From a virus, in the IMG/VR virus record IMGVR_UViG_3300050821_008060, positions 1-26,856 of that record: a stretch of 26,856 nt of DNA. One strand, written 5' to 3'. Within the stretch, counting starts at the first letter, position 1; every line of letters starts with the position of its first letter. Shown here piece after piece: positions 7,241 to 17,384 of this stretch. The position numbers and the translations under genes were made by a program. Below the pieces are notes generated by a model that did no database searches, was not told the DNA's origin, and saw nothing but the letters and a program-made list of their open reading frames with translations.

Positions 7241-8605
7241 GTGTTCACGCTCACGGCCAAGCAGCAAGAAGCCCAGGAGCTGCTGAATGGCCCCGCCCAG
7301 CACGTCATGCTGGCCGGAGGCAGCCGATCGGGCAAGACCGTGCTCATCGTGCGCAAGATCATTCAGCGCGCCTTAAAGGCCCCTGGGAGCCGCCATGCGA
7401 TCTTGCGCTTTCGCTTCGGTCACTGTGTCCAATCGATCGTGCACGGCACTTACCCATGGGTGCGCAAGAACTGCTTCCCGCAAATTCCCTACAGCCCGAG
7501 CGAGATCAACCACAGCGCCTGGTTTGCCACGCTCCCTGGGGGCTCGGAGATCTGGTTCGGTGGGCTCGATGACAAGGAACGGGTAGAGAAGATCTTGGGC
7601 AACGAATACGCCAGCATATTCCCGAATGAGTGCAGCCAGATTCCCTGGGCGTCGCGTAATGTGGCGGTCACCCGCTTGGCGCAAAAAGTCATGGACAGCG
7701 CCACGGGTAAGCCGCTGCGACTCAAGATGTACTACGACGAGAATCCGCCCGACAAAGGCCACTGGACCTATCGGCTCTTCAAGACCAAACAAGACCCCGA
7801 TACCAAGCAATATCTCGTCGACCCCGACAACTATGCCTTCATGCAGTTGAATCCGCGCGACAACCTCGAGAACCTGCCTCCGGAATACATCAAGACGCTC
7901 GAATCACTCCCGCTGCGTCTGCGCAAACGCTTCCTTGACGGCGAGTTCCGCGACCAAACTCCAAACGCGCTATTCATCGATGAGAATTTGGAGAAGTGGC
8001 GGCATGTGGACGGGGACTTACCCGACATGCTGCGCCTGGTGGTGGCTGTTGACCCCTCCGGTGCTGAGGACGATGAGAACATTGACAACGACGAGATCGG
8101 CATCAGCGTGTGTGGGTTGGGCGTCGATGGCAATGGCTATGTGCTGCAGGACCTGACCGTCAAGGCGGGGCCGGCGACGTGGGGGCGCGTCGCAGTACAG
8201 GCGTATCTGCGCGAGAAAGCCGACCGTATCGTCGGTGAAGTGAACTTCGGCGGCGCGATGGTGGGTCACGTCATCCGCACGGCGGCCCTAGAGCAAAAGA
8301 CGCGCGTGCCGTTCCGTAGCTTGACCGCAAGCCGGGGCAAGGTCGTGCGCGCAGAACCGATTGCCGCGCTCTTTGAGACGGGCAAATGCCGCCTGGTGGG
8401 ATTCCATCAGAACTTGGAGGACGAGCTCTCAGGATTTACCACCTACGGTTATACGGGCGATCACAGCCCGAACCGGGCGGACGCGATGATCTGGGCGCTG
8501 AGCGATCTATTCCCCGAGTTGATGCGCCCCGAGGAGCCGAAGAAGGAAGTGGCTCCAGTGCAGATTGCTAGACGGCGCACGGGTACCGAATGGATGCACC
8601 GATGA
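7241..8605 (+). CDS. Terminase large subunit
   Basis: This is 454 residues starting at a GTG that abuts the previous stop. The N-terminal ATPase has Walker A G-G-S-R-S-G-K-T (26-33), an E-I-W-F-G-G-L-D segment (103-110), and a Walker B-like S-I-F-P-N-E-C (125-131) in which N-E replaces the usual D-E. The C-terminal RNase H-like nuclease supplies V-V-A-V-D-P-S-G (D271), I-V-G-E-V-N-F-G-G (E333) and R-A-D-A-M-I-W-A-L (D414). This is the Terminase_6/Terminase_3 architecture. The enzyme pumps DNA into the prohead through the portal and cuts concatemers. The length is normal for the family. The small gene that follows overlaps its stop. Confidence 0.95.
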   Translation: MFTLTAKQQEAQELLNGPAQHVMLAGGSRSGKTVLIVRKIIQRALKAPGSRHAILRFRFGHCVQSIVHGTYPWVRKNCFPQIPYSPSEINHSAWFATLPGGSEIWFGGLDDKERVEKILGNEYASIFPNECSQIPWASRNVAVTRLAQKVMDSATGKPLRLKMYYDENPPDKGHWTYRLFKTKQDPDTKQYLVDPDNYAFMQLNPRDNLENLPPEYIKTLESLPLRLRKRFLDGEFRDQTPNALFIDENLEKWRHVDGDLPDMLRLVVAVDPSGAEDDENIDNDEIGISVCGLGVDGNGYVLQDLTVKAGPATWGRVAVQAYLREKADRIVGEVNFGGAMVGHVIRTAALEQKTRVPFRSLTASRGKVVRAEPIAALFETGKCRLVGFHQNLEDELSGFTTYGYTGDHSPNRADAMIWALSDLFPELMRPEEPKKEVAPVQIARRRTGTEWMHR

Positions 8606-8733
8606 GTATGAACCTCAAAAACTTGCCACCATTGCCTTCGAATCCTTACGACTTACGCCCCGTTGACCGGCTCGATGAAGTGCTGGCGCTGCTGCGCGAG
8701 ATTCGCGACTTGCTGAAAAAGGCCAAGAAATGA
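8602..8733 (+). CDS. Small protein between terminase and portal
   Basis: This 43-codon frame has its ATG overlapping the terminase stop (ATGA) and its TGA overlapping the portal ATG. The first half is N/L/P-rich (L-K-N-L-P-P-L-P-S-N-P-Y). The second half is a strongly amphipathic, coiled-coil-like helix, D-R-L-D-E-V-L-A-L-L-R-E-I-R-D-L-L-K-K. It is probably a real small gene, since it fills the otherwise untranslated gap exactly. The function is unknown. Confidence 0.62.
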   Translation: MSMNLKNLPPLPSNPYDLRPVDRLDEVLALLREIRDLLKKAKK

Positions 8734-10847
8734 GCGAGACCCGCGATCCCGACTTTGATGCGATTAGCGAAGCCGACATCTTCGAGGAAGCACGCGATCG
8801 GCTAAAGATTGCCATCGATGCGGATTCGGATAATCGCAAGCTCGCCAAAGAGGATCTGCTCTTCCGTGAGGGCGAGAACCATTGGGACAACAACTTTGTG
8901 ACTACCGAGTCACAGGAAAGTCCCGAGCTCGTCATCAACTTCACCGATACCCTGGTCGGCCGGGTGGTGAACAGCATTGCCGAGCGCGAGCCGCGTGGGA
9001 AGTGTCACCCCATTGGGGACGGCGCCGATGTCGAGCGGGCGGACATCATCAATGGCCTGGGGCGGCATATCGAGTATCGGTCCGATGCCTCTGTCGCCTA
9101 CGACATCGCCGTCGACAATGCAGTGACCTATGGGTGGGGTTGGGCGCGTCTCCTGGCTGAATTCGCCTCTCCCAAGAGCTTCGATAAAGAAATCCGCATC
9201 GTACCGATCATGAATTCCTTCGAGGTCTACCCGGACCCCGGCGCGATCATGCCGACCGCCTGTGATATGAAATGGTGCTTGATCTCACTCAAGATGAAGC
9301 GCATCGAATTCAAGCGACAAAACCCCGGAGTCGAACTCATTGCGTGGAATGATGTGGGCCGGGATGAATTTAGGGCCGATTGGGAGGACAAGGAAGAGAT
9401 TCGTTTAGCGGAGTATTTTCGCATTCGCGAGAAGACCGACACGCTGTATCAGCTTCAGGACGCTCAGGGGCAGACTTACACCTGCTTCAAGAATGAGATG
9501 CCCTCTGACGCACAGATGGCACAGATGGGCGCTAAAGTCGTCCAGCAGCGCGAATCCTCACGTCAGCAAGTCGAGTGGTTTCGTTTGAACGGGACCCAAG
9601 TCGTCAAACGCGCAGTGATGCCGGGCCAATGGATTCCGCTCGTGCGTTGCCAGGGCAGTGCGCGGAACATCGACGGCAAGATCTACCGCCGCGGTATGGT
9701 CAGATTCCTCCAAGACCCGCAGCGCATGGTCGACTATGGCGAGGTGGCCAAGATCAAGCGGTTGGGATTGACCCCGCAATCGCCGTGGGTGGCGTGGGAA
9801 GGGCAGCTGGATGGGCACCCGGAGTGGGAAAGCTCCAACATTGCGAACTATCCCGTTCTTGTGGTCAAGCCGATCACGATCACGACGAGCCAGGGTGAGC
9901 AACTGTTGCCGCCGCCGCAGCGCCAGCCGCCAGCACAGGTGGAAGCGGGATTCGCCGAATTCATCCAGGGCATGCGCTCGAACCTGTTGGCGATCGCCGG
10001 TATGCCGAACGAGCCGGGGCAGGATGCGCAGGATGGACCCGCGGTCTCCGGCCGTGCTTTGCAACGCCGCGACAAGCTCTCGGATCAGTCGCATAGCCAC
10101 TTCTACAAAAATCAGAAGCTCTTCATTGCGCAGATCTGGCGGATCATCTTGGAGTGGGCTCCCCATTATTACAGCGGGGCGCGCCTACAGCGCATCATCG
10201 GGGAAGATGGCAAACCGCAGATGGTCCAATTGAACCAAGCGGATGGCACCAACGATATGACGACGGGCCGCTTTGATGTGGTGATGGACGCAGGCCCCAG
10301 TTACGAGACCAAGCGCGAGGAGGGGGCCGAGGCGTTGATTGAACTGATGGGCGCGGGACCGATGGGCGAGATCGTCGCCAAAACCGCCCCTGATTTGGTG
10401 TTTCGCGCGCAAGACTTCCCCTATGCCGAGGAGATCGCGGATCGCTTGGCGGCCCAGACGCCCGAAGGCCTTAAGAAGATCATGGAGAATCTGCCGAAGG
10501 AAGCGCGCGCGGTGGTGCAATCCTTGGCGACTCAGAATGCGCAGTTGAAGCAGGCGCTGCAGGCTGCTGAACTCGAGGTCAAGTACGGCATTCAGAAAGC
10601 CCATCTGCAGGCAACCGTCAAAGCGCACGACGTGGAGGAGTCGAACAAGACCAAGCGCGAGGATACGCAGACGCGCGCCGACACCGCCATCAAAGTCGAG
10701 GCCATGCGCGGCCATGTAACGCTCGCCAAGGAGGAGATCGCCGCCGGCGCCGAGCTGCTCAATACCCACGTCGAGGCCAAGTATCACGAGAAAGAGGCCG
10801 AGCGGATGATGGAAAGCGCGGAGAAGGCCGAAAATGGCGCGGCTTAG
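8730..10847 (+). CDS. Portal protein, P22 gp1 type
   Basis: This is 705 residues, close to P22 gp1. The N-terminal part has A-K-E-D-L-L-F-R-E-G-E-N-H-W and P-E-L-V-I-N-F-T-D-T-L-V-G-R-V-V-N, then the wing/stem block Y-D-I-A-V-D-N-A-V-T-Y-G-W-G-W-A-R with I-M-N-S-F-E-V-Y-P-D-P. The core has R-N-I-D-G-K-I-Y-R-R-G-M-V-R-F-L-Q-D-P-Q-R and S-G-R-A-L-Q-R-R-D-K. From about residue 590 to the end is a long A/E/K/Q-rich helix, matching the P22 barrel, which acts as a DNA-pressure sensor and tail anchor. Twelve copies form the DNA-packaging vertex. The 3' end overlaps the glycosyltransferase gene by 14 bases. Confidence 0.93.
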   Translation: MSETRDPDFDAISEADIFEEARDRLKIAIDADSDNRKLAKEDLLFREGENHWDNNFVTTESQESPELVINFTDTLVGRVVNSIAEREPRGKCHPIGDGADVERADIINGLGRHIEYRSDASVAYDIAVDNAVTYGWGWARLLAEFASPKSFDKEIRIVPIMNSFEVYPDPGAIMPTACDMKWCLISLKMKRIEFKRQNPGVELIAWNDVGRDEFRADWEDKEEIRLAEYFRIREKTDTLYQLQDAQGQTYTCFKNEMPSDAQMAQMGAKVVQQRESSRQQVEWFRLNGTQVVKRAVMPGQWIPLVRCQGSARNIDGKIYRRGMVRFLQDPQRMVDYGEVAKIKRLGLTPQSPWVAWEGQLDGHPEWESSNIANYPVLVVKPITITTSQGEQLLPPPQRQPPAQVEAGFAEFIQGMRSNLLAIAGMPNEPGQDAQDGPAVSGRALQRRDKLSDQSHSHFYKNQKLFIAQIWRIILEWAPHYYSGARLQRIIGEDGKPQMVQLNQADGTNDMTTGRFDVVMDAGPSYETKREEGAEALIELMGAGPMGEIVAKTAPDLVFRAQDFPYAEEIADRLAAQTPEGLKKIMENLPKEARAVVQSLATQNAQLKQALQAAELEVKYGIQKAHLQATVKAHDVEESNKTKREDTQTRADTAIKVEAMRGHVTLAKEEIAAGAELLNTHVEAKYHEKEAERMMESAEKAENGAA

Positions 10848-11709
10848 TCTCTGCATTCCGACCTTCAATCGATGCGCATTCTTGGAGTGGACCTTGAATC
10901 GCCTGATCGAAGACTTTCCTGCCGCTCAGATCGTCATTTCCGACAATGATTCGAGCGATGGGACGAATGCTCTCGCGCACGGCTATCGAGGGTATCGGCG
11001 CCAATCCATCAATATCGGCGCCTTTCCAAACATGCTCGCGGCACTCAAGGGGGCAACCGGCACTTACGCCGTCTACTGCGCCGATGACGACTATCTGCTG
11101 CCCAATCAAGTGGCCGCCGGCATCGCCTATCTCGACGCACACCCGGAAGTTGCTGCGTACTGCGCCCCCTGCGAGATTTGGAATGAAGTCGCGCAAACCC
11201 CCTTCTGGAACGCCTTCAAGGTCGGTCCACCGCGGGTATTTACCAAGACTGACGGCCTCGAACTGTTCAACTTCCTCATTTCCCATCATGTTTGGCCCGA
11301 GCATCTGATCTACCGCACGCCTGTTCCCCTTCACGCCAGGACGCGCGCGTATTGGGCCTTCGCCGACCTGGTTGATCTATTGCAGGCCGGCGATCTTTAT
11401 TTTGATCCCACGCCCTTCTACCGCAACGTCCTGGTGCATCCGGTGGGCGAGCGCGAACAGTTGGGCAACACGCAGTGCCTGACCTATTTCGATGAGTATC
11501 GCGCGGGCTTGGAAGTGCTGGCCCACGGCCTCTTTGGCGATCAATTGCCGTACCGCGCGCGCCATCAGATTCAAGAGATGATCAGTTCCTTCATTTGCAC
11601 GCGCATGGATGTGGCGCGCCGATTGTATGAGCGAGCCGGGGATACGGACAACGCCCGCATGCTCGCTGCCCGACTAGCCATTGCCAACCCCGTGAGAGAT
11701 GCCGCATGA
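10834..11709 (+). CDS. Family 2-type glycosyltransferase in capsid operon
   Basis: This is 291 residues starting inside the portal 3' end. The N-terminal 110 residues are a GT-A fold: L-S-L-C-I-P-T-F-N-R (4-13), I-V-I-S-D-N-D-S-S-D-G-T (33-44) and the metal/nucleotide-binding Y-C-A-D-D-D-Y-L-L-P (81-90, D84-D86). The C-terminal half is a variable, mostly helical acceptor part. There are no transmembrane segments, so it is cytoplasmic and does not look like a membrane O-antigen-modifying GtrC. It lies between portal and scaffold and overlaps both (14 bases, then ATGA), so it is expressed with the head genes. I infer glycosylation of a virion protein. Modification of a host glycan or of phage DNA cannot be excluded. 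Confidence 0.85.
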   Translation: MARLSLCIPTFNRCAFLEWTLNRLIEDFPAAQIVISDNDSSDGTNALAHGYRGYRRQSINIGAFPNMLAALKGATGTYAVYCADDDYLLPNQVAAGIAYLDAHPEVAAYCAPCEIWNEVAQTPFWNAFKVGPPRVFTKTDGLELFNFLISHHVWPEHLIYRTPVPLHARTRAYWAFADLVDLLQAGDLYFDPTPFYRNVLVHPVGEREQLGNTQCLTYFDEYRAGLEVLAHGLFGDQLPYRARHQIQEMISSFICTRMDVARRLYERAGDTDNARMLAARLAIANPVRDAA

Positions 11710-12791
11710 CGACCGTAGTGCTCGATTCCAAGGATTTGGTTGAGTCCGTGACCACAGGGACCGTCCCAGTCCCCGCAGGCATTGCCGAGGACAACGCACG
11801 CCAGGCCGAGAAGCGCGGCGAGAAGCCGGCCGAGGCGAAACCCGCCGCCAAGGCAGACGAGGCCGATCCGGTCAAGGAAGCCGAAGCCGCTCTCGCCAAT
11901 GCCGATGATGTCGAAGGCGAAGATGGCCTAACCCCCCGTCAGCGGCGCGAATACACCGCCGCCATGCTCAAGACCATCGGCAAGAAGCATCGGGCGCAGA
12001 AGGAAGCCGAGGAGCTTGCAACCCGTCAGTACAACGATCGGGTGTTGGCGGAGCAGCGCGCCCAAGAAGCGGAGCGCCAGTTGGCTGAGATCAAGGCGAA
12101 GACCGCGCCGGCGCCCAAGGTGGAAGAGGCGAAAGTCCCGGCTCGTGAAGACTTCAAAGACGATCAGTCCTACTGGGATGCGATGGTCGACTATCGCGTG
12201 GATCAGAGACTGCGCGTCGCTCAAGCCGAGGCCGCGCAGCGCCGCGATGAAGAGCATCAAGCCGCCATCGTCGCCAAAGCCACGGAGCGCGTCGAGAAGG
12301 CGCGCGAACTCGTGCCGGATTTCAATGAGGTCGTGGGCGCCATCGATGCGCCGATCCCGCCGTATGTCGCGAACTACATGCAAGAATCCGAGATGCTGGG
12401 TGAATTAAGTTATTATTTCGGCCAGCACCCCGAAGCGTTAACTAAACTCGCGAAGATCACCGAAGGCGTTCGTGAAGGAACGCGCGCATACACCGAGGCG
12501 GTGACGAAACAATTAGTTGCATTGGGAAAAATCGAGAGTACACTCCAACCATTCGCATCCAAAGCGAAAGTCGATACCGGTGAGCCTCTCACCAAGAACG
12601 GCAAAGAGCCGAGTCCAGAAACGGGAACCGCCCCGAGTAAGCCCCGCGTCCAAGCGCCGATTATCGCGCCCTTGAATGGCGGCAGTGCCTCCCAAGTCTT
12701 GAAAGATGAAGCGGACATGACTGGTTCGCAAGTCATCACGGCCTGGCAGAAGAAGCACGGCGTCACTCTCACGGCTCGCAAGCGTCACTAA
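11706..12791 (+). CDS. Capsid scaffolding protein
   Basis: This is 361 residues and overlaps the glycosyltransferase stop by ATGA. The composition is typical of scaffolds: long runs of A, E, K, Q and R with predicted extended coiled coil (residues about 30-70 and 95-205) and an acidic, P/A-rich N-terminus. The C-terminus is basic (W-Q-K-K-H-G-V-T-L-T-A-R-K-R-H), comparable with the basic coat-binding helix-turn-helix at the end of P22 gp8. Its location immediately before the coat gene is the conserved scaffold position. Scaffold directs prohead assembly and exits before packaging. The call rests on composition and gene order rather than a specific motif. Confidence 0.78.
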   Translation: MTTVVLDSKDLVESVTTGTVPVPAGIAEDNARQAEKRGEKPAEAKPAAKADEADPVKEAEAALANADDVEGEDGLTPRQRREYTAAMLKTIGKKHRAQKEAEELATRQYNDRVLAEQRAQEAERQLAEIKAKTAPAPKVEEAKVPAREDFKDDQSYWDAMVDYRVDQRLRVAQAEAAQRRDEEHQAAIVAKATERVEKARELVPDFNEVVGAIDAPIPPYVANYMQESEMLGELSYYFGQHPEALTKLAKITEGVREGTRAYTEAVTKQLVALGKIESTLQPFASKAKVDTGEPLTKNGKEPSPETGTAPSKPRVQAPIIAPLNGGSASQVLKDEADMTGSQVITAWQKKHGVTLTARKRH

Positions 12792-12793
12792 GG

Positions 12794-12815
12794 AAAGCGG
12801 GAAAACCCAAGCTTT
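12794..12815 (+). other. Hairpin in scaffold-coat intergenic gap
   Basis: AAAGCGGG (12794-12801), loop AAAA and CCC-AA-GCTTT (12806-12815) form an 8-bp stem with a 2-base bulge. No U-run follows, so it is not a convincing terminator. It lies in the 40-base gap between scaffold and coat. A second perfect 5-bp hairpin, GCGCC-TTGAAT-GGCGC (12822-12837), covers the ATG at 12831. Confidence 0.45.
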
Positions 12816-12830
12816 CTCGATGCGCCTTGA

Positions 12831-14213
12831 ATGGCGCGGTGGACGACTTTGGCGAACCAACTCCTGACGATCAGCATGATCACGAATCGTGCTCTGCCCG
12901 TTCTTGCGAATCTCTGCACCCTCACTGACAAGTTCAACCGTCAGTACGACAAAGAATTCGGCGTCAAGGGCCGCAAAATCGGCGCGACCTGCAACGTGCG
13001 CATGCCGCCCCGCTACTTGGGCACTTTCGGTCCCGCGCTCAATGTCGAGCCCTCGACCGAGAACTACGTTCCGGTGTCGATCCTGTACCAGTTCCACATC
13101 GATATTCAGTTCAACACCATCAACATGCTGTTGGACATCGACGAATTCGAAGAGCGCTTCATCCATCCGGCGTGTATTGCGGTCGGCAACCGCATCGATT
13201 CGGACGGCGCCTATTTCGGCTTCCAAAACACGGGGAGCATGGGTGGCACCCTAGGCACCCCGCCGACCTCGTATCTGCAGTTCGCCCTCGCACGCGCAGT
13301 GCTGGTCTCCGAAGGCATGCCGAAGGGTGAAATCCCCTCGGCGGTCCTCCATCCCATCGCCCAGGCCTACATGGGCGACAGCTTGAAGGGGCTCTTCAAC
13401 CCCCAAGCACGGGTCGCGGACATCTACGAAACCGGCATGATCGCGAAGAAAACCGCCGGGTTTGATTGGTTCGAAGACCCGAATATCGCGAACTACACCA
13501 CGGGCGTCCTCTCGGGGACTCCGGTACTCGCGGGTTCGACGGCGCCAACTGGCGGCACGGCACTCCTCACCTCCGGATGGGCGCAGTCGGGAACTTTCGA
13601 AATCTCGGGGCTCTCGAACACGACCGCGTCTTGCATCGTGGGCGATACGCTGCAGATCAAGGGCGTCTTCCCCGTCAATCCGCAGAACCGCGGCCAGTAC
13701 GGCACGACCTTGAAGCAGTTCGTCGTGCTACCCCCTGGTGGATACGCTCAGATGACTGGCGTCGCCGCCCCCGGCGGTCCGCAGTTCGCCGCGGCCACGC
13801 TCTCGCACGGCACCTTCAATGCGGCCACGGGTGTCTATACCTCGAACGGTTCCGGACTGCTCACGGTCACCGTTGCCGAATGCTTGATCTCGGGCGGACA
13901 GTTCCAGAATTCAAGCTCTGCGCCGGTTTCCCCCTTCACCGTGACCATCAACGGTCAGGCGGGTGTGGGTTCTGCGGTCGCGAACACGCAGCACTTGGCG
14001 TTCCATCGCGACGCCTTTGCGCTGGCCTTCGTCGACTTGCCGCTGCCGCGTACGGCGGTGGAAGCATCGCGGGCCTATGACGAGGATCTAGGTCTCTCGA
14101 TCCGCATCGCGACGCAGTACACCATCAACAACGACGCGGAACCGACGCGTCTTGATGTCGCGTATGGCTTCGCCAGTCTGTATCGCCAGCTCGCCTATCG
14201 AGTGGCAGGGTAA
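12831..14213 (+). CDS. Major coat protein, P22 gp5 type
   Basis: This is 460 residues from ATG 12831. A TTG at 12849 is a serious alternative. It would begin M-A-N-Q-L-L-T-I-S-M-I-T, the N-terminus I know for this coat family, and it has GGTGGA (12838-12843) five bases upstream, whereas the ATG has no ribosome site. P22-coat-family signatures are N-R-Q-Y-D-K-E-F-G-V-K-G-R-K-I-G, N-V-R-M-P-P-R-Y, the I-D-E-F-E-E-R-F-I-H-P-A block, H-R-D-A-F-A-L-A-F-V-D-L-P, and the C-terminal L-S-I-R-I-A-T-Q-Y-T-I-N-N-D-A-E-P-T-R-L-D-V-A-Y-G-F. It forms the HK97-fold icosahedral shell. Residues about 225-385 are G/S/T-rich, as expected for the inserted domain. It is preceded by two small hairpins. Confidence 0.93.
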   Translation: MARWTTLANQLLTISMITNRALPVLANLCTLTDKFNRQYDKEFGVKGRKIGATCNVRMPPRYLGTFGPALNVEPSTENYVPVSILYQFHIDIQFNTINMLLDIDEFEERFIHPACIAVGNRIDSDGAYFGFQNTGSMGGTLGTPPTSYLQFALARAVLVSEGMPKGEIPSAVLHPIAQAYMGDSLKGLFNPQARVADIYETGMIAKKTAGFDWFEDPNIANYTTGVLSGTPVLAGSTAPTGGTALLTSGWAQSGTFEISGLSNTTASCIVGDTLQIKGVFPVNPQNRGQYGTTLKQFVVLPPGGYAQMTGVAAPGGPQFAAATLSHGTFNAATGVYTSNGSGLLTVTVAECLISGGQFQNSSSAPVSPFTVTINGQAGVGSAVANTQHLAFHRDAFALAFVDLPLPRTAVEASRAYDEDLGLSIRIATQYTINNDAEPTRLDVAYGFASLYRQLAYRVAG

Positions 14214-14223
14214 GGAGTAATCA

Positions 14224-14634
14224 ATGGCATTTCCCGCTTCCACCAACGTCGACGGCTCCAACCCGGGCCCGAACAGCGTCTCACTGCCCGACACAATCCA
14301 GTTGCCGACGGGCAATATCTGGAAGAACGGCGTTTTCAACATCACGCTCTCGCCCATTTCGGTGGCTCCGAACACGGTGGCCGAACAGACCTTTGCCGCC
14401 ACCGGCATCGGGCTACTCACCTCGGATCAAGTGAGCATCTCCAAACCCACCACTCAGGCGGGATTGGGAATCGTCAATGTGCGGGTGAGCTCGGCCGATA
14501 CCCTCGCCGTGGCCTTCATCAACGCGACCGCCGCCACCATCACGCCGACGGCCTCCGAGGTCTACACGGTGGAGGTCAATCGGGTGCAGCCGAACTGGTC
14601 GAAGCCGGCGACGGGCAACCAGCTCGACTGGTAG
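14224..14634 (+). CDS. Small head protein, probable decoration (paralogue A)
   Basis: This is 136 residues with a good AAGGAG site six bases before the ATG, right after the coat gene. It is S/T/N/P-rich and all-beta in appearance. Residues about 43-122 align with the protein at 15310-15654: S-P-x-S-V-A-P-N-T-x-A-E-Q-x-F, K-P-T-x-Q-A-G-L-x-I-x-N-x-R-V-S and T-A-A-T-I-T-P-T-A-x-E-x-Y-x-x-x-V-x-R. The two are clearly paralogues by duplication. Copy A carries a 40-residue N-terminal extension and a W-ending tail. Position after coat, small size and strand-rich sequence suggest a capsid decoration or head-stabilising protein. That role is inferred, not shown. Confidence 0.72.
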   Translation: MAFPASTNVDGSNPGPNSVSLPDTIQLPTGNIWKNGVFNITLSPISVAPNTVAEQTFAATGIGLLTSDQVSISKPTTQAGLGIVNVRVSSADTLAVAFINATAATITPTASEVYTVEVNRVQPNWSKPATGNQLDW

Positions 14635-14638
14635 CGCC

Positions 14639-15310
14639 ATGCATACCGTCTTATTCGCGACGCCCACCGTCGATAAGACGCTGTCGGTGGACTATCACAC
14701 CTCCATGCTCGGGACGGTGGCGATGTGCCATCGTCACAAGATCGCCTGTGATTCTCGCATCATCGCCGGCAATCAGTTCATCGACGATGCCCGCAATGCC
14801 TTGGTTGACCATTTCCTGAAGGGCGATTTCACGGACCTGTTCTTCATCGATGCCGATGAGGGGTGGGACCCGAAAGTCATCCCGCGCTTTCTCGATTACC
14901 CCCAAGGCGTCGTCTGTGGCTTGCCGCCGAAGAAGTGCGATCCGCCGACCTTCCATTCCAATGCCCTCACCGGCCATATCGAGAACGGATTATTCCAAGC
15001 GCTCGAGGCGGGAACGGGCTTCATGCGGATCCAGCGTTCGGTGTTTGAGCGCATGGACAAAGCCTTTCCGGAACTGAAGGAAGCGACGAAGGGGGAATTC
15101 CCCTGGACGCATACGCCTTACTTTCAAGGCGGCAACACCCGCTATGGCGTGATTCGCGAGGACATTTTCTTCTGCCGCCAGATGGTCGCGATGGGCGAGC
15201 ATTTATGGATCGATTCGGATGTGGATTTCACGCATCGCGGATCGAAGGCCTGGAAGGGCAATTTCTACGATCACTGTGTGAGCACCGGACTTTTGAAGAG
15301 GACAGCGTAA
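14639..15310 (+). CDS. Glycosyltransferase-like protein (DxD) in head operon
   Basis: This is 223 residues, four bases after paralogue A and overlapping paralogue B by one base (TAATG). The core is D-D-A-R-N-A-L-V-D-H-F-L-K-G-D-F-T-D-L-F-F-I-D-A-D-E-G-W-D-P (49-78). It is followed by V-V-C-G-L-P-P-K-K (91-99), then A-L-E-A-G-T-G-F-M-R-I and E-D-I-F-F-C-R-Q-M near the C-terminus. This is the R-N-x-L/A with D-x-D layout of GT-A-fold phage and viral glycosyltransferase-like proteins. D71-A-D73 would bind the metal and sugar nucleotide. No membrane segment is present. It is unrelated in sequence detail to the family 2-type enzyme at 10834-11709. Being sandwiched between the two putative decoration genes suggests they are its acceptors. 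Confidence 0.72.
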   Translation: MHTVLFATPTVDKTLSVDYHTSMLGTVAMCHRHKIACDSRIIAGNQFIDDARNALVDHFLKGDFTDLFFIDADEGWDPKVIPRFLDYPQGVVCGLPPKKCDPPTFHSNALTGHIENGLFQALEAGTGFMRIQRSVFERMDKAFPELKEATKGEFPWTHTPYFQGGNTRYGVIREDIFFCRQMVAMGEHLWIDSDVDFTHRGSKAWKGNFYDHCVSTGLLKRTA

Positions 15311-15654
15311 TGCCGAATCCCAACACCATCGCACGTGGCAACATCATTGGCGAGTGGGTGCTCTCCCCGACGCTCTCTCCGGCCTCGGTGGCGCCCAATA
15401 CCACCGCCGAGCAAGCGTTCACCGTGCAGGGCCTGAACGTCGGGGACTTTATCGAGGTCAACAAGCCTACGGTGCAAGCGGGCTTGGCGATCATCAATAC
15501 CCGCGTGAGTGCGGCCAACACCTTGCAGATTGGCTTCGGGAATCTGACAGCCGCCACGATCACCCCGACGGCGAATGAAATCTACAACATCACGGTCACT
15601 CGGCCGGAGAACCTGACCGCCGCCGGCAATTCGATCCTCGCAGCGATCACCTAA
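15310..15654 (+). CDS. Small head protein, probable decoration (paralogue B)
   Basis: This is 114 residues, with the ATG overlapping the preceding stop. It is the paralogue of the 14224-14634 product over about 80 residues and shares S-V-A-P-N-T-x-A-E-Q, Q-A-G-L-x-I-x-N-x-R-V-S and T-A-A-T-I-T-P-T-A-x-E. It lacks the long N-terminal extension of copy A. The codons have diverged considerably, so the duplication is old. It is all-beta in appearance with no cysteines. A function as a decoration or head-completion protein is inferred from context. The sequence downstream is another S/A-rich small protein. Confidence 0.72.
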   Translation: MPNPNTIARGNIIGEWVLSPTLSPASVAPNTTAEQAFTVQGLNVGDFIEVNKPTVQAGLAIINTRVSAANTLQIGFGNLTAATITPTANEIYNITVTRPENLTAAGNSILAAIT

Positions 15655-17132: not shown

Positions 17133-17384
17133 ATGCCTACGATGCCCAATGTAGTGGGGCTAGAACTCGGCACGGCACAAGCGGCCTTGCAAGCGGCGGG
17201 TGTATTGGTGTTGGGCGCCATCGGCTACTTCGGCACCTATCCGGTCAGCGTGAGCTGGCGAAAATCCGCTTCACCCCCCTTGACCGTGCTCTCTCAATCG
17301 ATCAACTCGGGTAACTCGGTGGCCGCCAATGCCGCGCTCACTTTGGGCGTGGCGCAACCGCCGATGGCCGTGGTGTTTCCCTAA
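17133..17384 (+). CDS. Single PASTA-domain protein
   Basis: This is 83 residues. M-P-N-V-V-G-L-E-L-G-T-A-Q-A-A-L-Q-A-A-G-V (residues 4-24) and V-L-S-Q-S-I-N-S-G-N-S-V-A-A-N-A-A-L-T-L-G-V (50-71) are the two halves of a PASTA domain. The loop between them is longer than usual. PASTA domains bind peptidoglycan fragments in bacterial PknB kinases and PBPs. In phages they occur as short structural proteins of unclear role. There is no signal peptide. It overlaps the next gene by one base (TAATG). It could contact peptidoglycan during entry, which is inference. Confidence 0.78.
   Translation: MPTMPNVVGLELGTAQAALQAAGVLVLGAIGYFGTYPVSVSWRKSASPPLTVLSQSINSGNSVAANAALTLGVAQPPMAVVFP

Follow-up and report, generated by a model that had tools for sequence, protein, structure and literature searches.

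A candidate virion glycosyltransferase encoded between two paralogous small proteins behind the coat gene of a P22-like podovirus

Background

Glycosylation of phage virions is known from few cases, mainly from mycobacteriophages. For these, modification of the capsid and the tail tube by phage-coded glycosyltransferases has been reported, and the Che8 capsid is among the structures described as glycosylated (Freeman et al. 2023, as cited in PMC12619734, PMC11256854, PMC11600133). In cluster O phages, three glycosyltransferases encoded behind an O-methyltransferase are described as serving capsid and tail tube modification (PMC11600133). In the archaeal virus STIV, the coat protein B345 is reported to be glycosylated and the protein A197 to be essential. 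A197 was proposed to carry out the cytoplasmic glycosylation of this coat, the link between the two being described as unproven (PMC10551542; PMC4187194).

Here we present the computational analysis of a podoviral head module that encodes two soluble glycosyltransferases, one of which lies between two small proteins that may be its acceptors.

Results

The window, i.e. the whole stretch of DNA analysed here, is 26,856 bases long and corresponds to a linear virus record of IMG/VR. Judged by its gene matches it is a partial genome of a P22-like podovirus, since it encodes a P22-type Cro, an Sf6-type small terminase and a large terminase as well as a P22 portal, a scaffold, a P22 coat and gp4/gp10-like tail genes. 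The features of the head module are listed in Table 1.

Table 1. Features of the head module, in positions of the window
Feature	Position	Strand	Assignment or evidence
terL	7241..8605		large terminase
portal, P22-type, upstream of GT1	8730..10847	+	PF16510, E 5.8e-124
GT1, soluble family 2-type glycosyltransferase, 291 aa	10834..11709	+	PF00535, E 3e-14
scaffold, head scaffolding protein	11706..12791	+	phrog_8865, E 8.7e-18
coat, P22-type	12831..14213	+	PF11651, E 4.4e-17; phrog_283, E 3e-50
par1, small beta-sandwich protein, candidate acceptor	14224..14634	+	predicted fold and relatives
par1 candidate acceptor loop, residues 100-113, NATAATITPTASEV	14521..14562	+	N-x-S/T at N100
GT2, GT-A-fold glycosyltransferase, 223 aa	14639..15310	+	AF2 model, Foldseek, family profile
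par2, par1 paralogue without leader, candidate acceptor	15310..15654	+	start from relatives

The first-pass annotation had described a family 2-type glycosyltransferase gene wedged between portal and scaffold with overlaps on both sides, and a second DxD glycosyltransferase-like gene between two paralogous, strand-rich small proteins behind the coat; both enzymes were said to lack membrane segments. Our analysis agrees with each of these points. GT1 overlaps the portal gene by 14 nt and the scaffold gene by 4 nt (ATGA), and its match to PF00535 reaches 53.7 bits (curated cut-off 23.3). GT2 starts 4 nt after the stop codon of par1, and its TAA shares one nucleotide with the ATG of par2 (TAATG, 15308-15312). 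The start of the par2 reading frame at 15205 is a mechanical one and was replaced by the ATG at 15310 upon comparison with relatives. In a Kyte-Doolittle scan the highest 19-residue mean was 0.89 for GT1 and 0.67 for GT2, i.e. neither protein has a membrane segment. Between 10600 and 16000 the coding strand shows neither promoter-like nor terminator-like sites, which would fit a single late transcript. This arrangement is more than chance, because homologues keep their places in dozens of contigs and the glycosyltransferase genes are under purifying selection (dN/dS about 0.1-0.18).

No model of Pfam or NCBIfam matched GT2. It does match phrog_1574 (E 7e-19), as do its distant relatives; this family is annotated as of unknown function, and its related genes in large phages are found among replication genes. 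The AF2 model of GT2, computed from an alignment of 54 relatives (A3), is a confident GT-A fold with a pLDDT of 96.5. When the model was compared with the PDB by Foldseek, the best match was STIV A197 (2c0n, E 1e-9). It was followed by the collagen glycosyltransferases LH3 and COLGALT1, by R699 of mimivirus and by the PBCV-1 enzyme (2p6w, 2p72), and the TM-scores were moderate (about 0.35-0.54). A hmmsearch of the A3 family profile against all PDB sequences gave a single significant match, which again was A197 (E 1.3e-5); the alignment covers positions 36-143 and brings the DxD segments together. The fold is thus supported in two ways, by structure prediction and by the match of the family profile to a GT-A enzyme of solved structure, and GT2 is very probably a GT-A enzyme of an A197-related family. 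The residues R52, D66, D71, D73, D175, H199 and G201 are invariant in the 54-sequence alignment. Candidate catalytic positions, with roles assigned by analogy, are D71-x-D73, E174/D175 and the C-terminal, putatively metal-binding H199, and GT2 is predicted to be active in sugar transfer.

Relatives of GT2 down to about 30-37% identity are encoded directly behind a P22-type coat and before a gp4-like gene, with par1 and par2 on either side among the closer relatives. Since these loci had been chosen by GT2 itself, loci were resampled by their coat, and 62 of those obtained extend for 1.5 kb or more past the coat gene. GT2 is present in 32 of them and absent from 30. The par1 gene is kept in nearly all, also where GT2 is absent, and several loci free of GT2 have par1 and a par2-type protein directly adjacent. 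GT2 is therefore optional, while the small proteins on its two sides are conserved, and the supported branches of the coat tree show six or more gains or losses of GT2. Distant homologues in T4-like phages and in pelagiphage HTVC027P sit among replication genes, those of large phages next to sliding clamp or primase genes. Members of the family thus need not act on virions or share one acceptor.

METHYLTRANSFERASES. Many relatives of GT2 are fused to a class I methyltransferase (L064-L066, L070, L087-L093, MW202691). Methyltransf_24 scores above its cut-off in L064 and L088, related domains are found in L070, L087-L093 and MW202691, and the fusion in L092 carries an additional family 2-like segment. 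A separate methyltransferase adjoins the GT2 relative in four further loci (L063, L073, L227, L232). In the window no methyltransferase lies beside the GT2 cassette. By analogy, these recurrent partners lend partial support to a role of GT2 on the virion.

The small proteins par1 and par2 are paralogues with 47% identity, and a beta-sandwich is predicted for both. In the AF2 model (pLDDT 81), par1 is a beta-sandwich with residues 1-18 disordered. This unfolded N-terminal leader is conserved in par1 and absent from par2; L192 and L206 encode a similar leader ahead of a C-terminal domain that is unrelated. A search for solved relatives of the fold gave no significant match, and the viral predicted models that resemble it are limited to small proteins of uncharacterised function and to domains from tail proteins or fibre-like proteins. 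In MW202697 the par domain is encoded shortly behind an annotated major capsid gene. The position after the coat, the modular leader and the beta-sandwich fold suggest that par1 and par2 are head decoration proteins; in par1 the leader would act as an anchor and the outer domain would be exchangeable. A hint of an intein in par2 (16.5 bits, E 0.007) was taken as chance.

In par1 we noticed by eye an N-[not P]-[S/T] sequon at column 100, and its link to GT2 was tested post hoc. The sequon is found in 36 of 38 loci with GT2 and in 3 of 29 loci without it (67 loci; naive Fisher p = 4e-13, calculated over related loci that are not independent). On the coat tree an average of 5.6 of six independent supported pairs agreed with the link and 0.1 opposed it (median p 0.03). 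A control tail motif showed no co-segregation with GT2 on the same tree. New loci from other coats were in line with the link: one of seven readable par1 sequences without GT2 has the sequon. Several par1 columns of the 74-81 loop (T76, K74, Q78, L81) and of the 105-112 loop co-segregate with GT2 nearly as well. It is thus the whole par1 type that travels with GT2, and the sequon may mark an exchange in one block. With 81-90 paired to 93-100 in the strand order, both loops are probably located at one end of the domain. A recognition patch would be expected to look like this; block exchange would explain the pattern too. In par2, N-x-S/T is found in 33 of 33 proteins from GT2 loci. Among par2-type proteins without GT2 the count is 4 of 10, to which new loci add 2 of 3 (6/13 altogether). 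To our knowledge, no GT-A enzyme uses an N-x-S/T sequon. Two other candidate markers were rejected. The C-terminal tail of par1 (QPNW...DW), considered as an acceptor specific to GT2, also occurs without GT2 and was negative in the pair test, and S/T richness hardly differs (22% vs 21%).

GT1 carries a DDD motif at residues 84-86, and the YxCADDDY core around it is invariant across nine relatives (dN/dS about 0.18). About a dozen relatives with 59-67% identity are all part of the same kind of head module, where they occupy three places: before terL, between terL and portal, or between portal and scaffold. The gene was found in only 4 of 80 loci sampled by coat, and in L002 it is reduced to a C-terminal remnant. 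Within the head module, GT1 is both optional and mobile. The co-occurrence of GT1 and GT2 at some loci suggests a partnership, though not a required one, as L018/L125 has GT1 and no GT2.

Discussion

The GT-A fold, the relation to A197, the conserved place and catalytic positions and the co-segregation with the par1 type, all of them computed for GT2, can be brought together in one mechanism. GT2 would be a soluble GT-A glycosyltransferase that is made with the late head proteins and probably acts on the virion. We lean towards par1 and par2, the adjacent and probable shell decoration, as its acceptors; we infer that they are present in the virion and that GT2 would add a sugar to them from a host nucleotide-sugar. 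The likeliest site would be the S/T/N-rich loop near residues 100-110 of par1 and its counterpart in par2. GT1 may lengthen the same glycan as a second, optional enzyme, a suggestion that we make with little confidence. The original proposal that both enzymes are made with the head proteins and have the paralogues as acceptors thus fares well for GT2, with its place, the par1 type, the relation to A197 and the methyltransferases in favour. For GT1 the case is weaker: the gene is rare, has three different positions and survives in L002 as a remnant only.

Genes for serotype conversion are a classical feature of P22-like phages. One or both enzymes might modify the surface of the host, at its O-antigen or capsule, so as to exclude other phages late in infection or alter a receptor, their place in the head module being a tolerated insertion. 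Both genes are accessory, and it is mostly for GT1, optional and found at three sites, that such a role can be envisaged. GT1 has weak matches in NCBIfam and to phrog_841, a family of GtrB-like O-antigen conversion enzymes with which it has the family 2 domain in common (E 0.018). However, the C-terminal membrane segments of GtrB are absent from GT1 and GT2 alike, and no gtrA or gtrC neighbour is seen, GT1 being flanked by portal and scaffold. Lysogenic conversion is hard to reconcile with expression from a late operon, and just 2 of 17 relatives of 40-44 kb encode a recognisable tyrosine integrase. GT2, moreover, keeps its site between par1 and par2 across great divergence and follows the par1 type. 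We therefore regard action on the host surface as unlikely, though it is the strongest of the alternatives.

It is marginally less probable still that the enzymes glycosylate the virion on another protein, either the coat, e.g. in its insertion domain, or one of the tail, with par1 and par2 as bystanders. The coat is adjacent and abundant, and the major capsid protein is the glycoprotein named in reports on STIV, PBCV-1 and Che8. GT2, however, is nested between par1 and par2, and on the coat tree it follows the par1 type. T-even glucosyltransferases glycosylate modified bases of phage DNA, and the clamp and primase neighbours of distant homologues would suit such an activity, but we consider it very improbable for GT2, which is encoded in the head module and whose nearest solved relatives are mostly protein-linked enzymes, the more so as a search whose controls worked detected no thymidylate synthase/dCMP hydroxymethylase homologue (PF00303) in the same 17 relatives.

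Returning to par1 and par2 as acceptors, a more far-reaching version can be formulated as a speculation that we think unlikely as a whole. GT2 would glycosylate protein in the cytosol and recognise its partner, a head decoration protein, by an N-x-S/T loop. The A197-type family would glycosylate the capsids of bacterial and archaeal viruses alike, and in some lineages the glycan would be capped by methyltransferases.

As to the host, the first-pass annotation had drawn a comparison with phages of actinobacteria and had suggested that a glycan coat could change immune recognition. None of the host clues in our analysis points to actinobacteria, and the idea about immune recognition finds no support here: the nearest cultured coat is that of Xanthomonas phage PBR31 (48%). 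The small genes after the coat of PBR31 include no annotated glycosyltransferase. A genome search for relatives returned only short metagenome-assembled contigs, assigned to Pseudomonadota and Armatimonadota, at 38-40% identity.

With these results the unnamed phrog_1574-type family gains a probable function and is linked by sequence to an enzyme of an archaeal virus. In par1 and par2 there are two defined candidate acceptors, and the relatives with and without GT2 provide a natural comparison. The question is reduced to three small proteins, and its answer would help to settle the role of A197-type enzymes.

Comparison with known systems

Among mycobacteriophage enzymes, Che8 gp108 combines a family 2 domain with Methyltransf_24/TylF, the same plan as in the fused relatives of GT2. 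However, the genes for gp108-gp110 lie at the right genome end of a phage with actinobacterial hosts, whereas GT1 and GT2 belong to the head block. With hhalign and BLASTP, neither GT1 nor GT2 showed detectable similarity to gp109 or gp110, and GT2 had no significant match to gp108. A homology of the Che8 enzymes to GT1 and GT2 was rejected, a weak partial match of the DxD region to gp108 being the only trace. The likeness to mycobacteriophages, and with it the earlier comparison, is therefore one of analogy only.

The A064R-type enzyme of PBCV-1, described as involved in capsid glycosylation, has a GT-A fold as well, with likeness to GT2 at the level of the fold only (TM about 0.36). STIV A197 is closer: it gave the best fold match and is the one protein of solved structure with a significant sequence relation to the GT2 family. 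Both proteins are small, soluble and single-domain, at about 18% identity. STIV itself is an unrelated virus with a double jelly-roll coat, and the acceptor of A197 is a proposed one, like that of GT2. The kind of system is thus a known one, while the GT2 family, its place in the head module and the paired candidate acceptors are new as far as our analysis shows.

Interrupted coat genes and small head proteins

In the related locus L014, a Group I intron interrupts the P22-type coat gene after approximately coat residue 36; it matches Rfam RF00028 at 65 bits. In L011 the coat gene is split at about the same point, and those of L040 and L044–L048 are likewise broken, upstream of coat residues 34–40, near the L014 position. 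Since an Rfam search of the interruptions in L011, L046 and L048 returned nothing above threshold, their inserts are different or divergent from that of L014. In L157, MW202691 and L232, an HNH-like or annotated endonuclease gene separates coat from the small proteins (Table).

Directly 3' of coat, L192, L206 and L227 encode a modular head protein that retains a leader like that of par1 (clear in L192 and L206), followed by a C-terminal domain unlike par1's, with the motif FYGxTPIxQRxxAxxAT. The par1 paralogue par2 marginally matches an intein C-terminal model (16.5 bits against a cut-off of 15.6, E 0.007), probably by chance. Further downstream, the PASTA protein is retained in many relatives.

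Fused, decayed and distant glycosyltransferase genes

A 725-aa protein of L092 combines a GT2-type domain, a methyltransferase domain and an additional family 2-like segment. Between terL and portal, L002 carries a C-terminal remnant of GT1, a sign of gene loss. T4-like phages and one pelagiphage carry distant GT2-like glycosyltransferase genes among their genes for replication.

Table. Coordinates of the features discussed
Feature	Location	Remark
GDSL/SGNH-type hydrolase	window 15961-17127	matches tail-protein PHROG; between par1-GT2-par2 cassette and gp4-like tail gene
PASTA-domain protein	window 17133-17384	between cassette and gp4-like gene
par2	window 15310-15654	
Group I intron	L014:8335-8847	
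Split coat gene	L011:15104-15792	
HNH-like or annotated endonuclease gene	L157:6379-6864	between coat and small proteins
HNH-like or annotated endonuclease gene	MW202691 26226-26807	between coat and small proteins
HNH-like or annotated endonuclease gene	L232:2447-2965	between coat and small proteins
Post-coat gene	L192:5877-6152	
Post-coat gene	L206:5877-6167	
Post-coat gene	L227:5869-6132	
Fused glycosyltransferase	L092:7007-9181	
GT1 remnant	L002:2312-2425	
Distant GT2-like glycosyltransferase	KU682439 29740-30597	
Distant GT2-like glycosyltransferase	MT028491 10322-11128	
Distant GT2-like glycosyltransferase	MN698241 3493-4200
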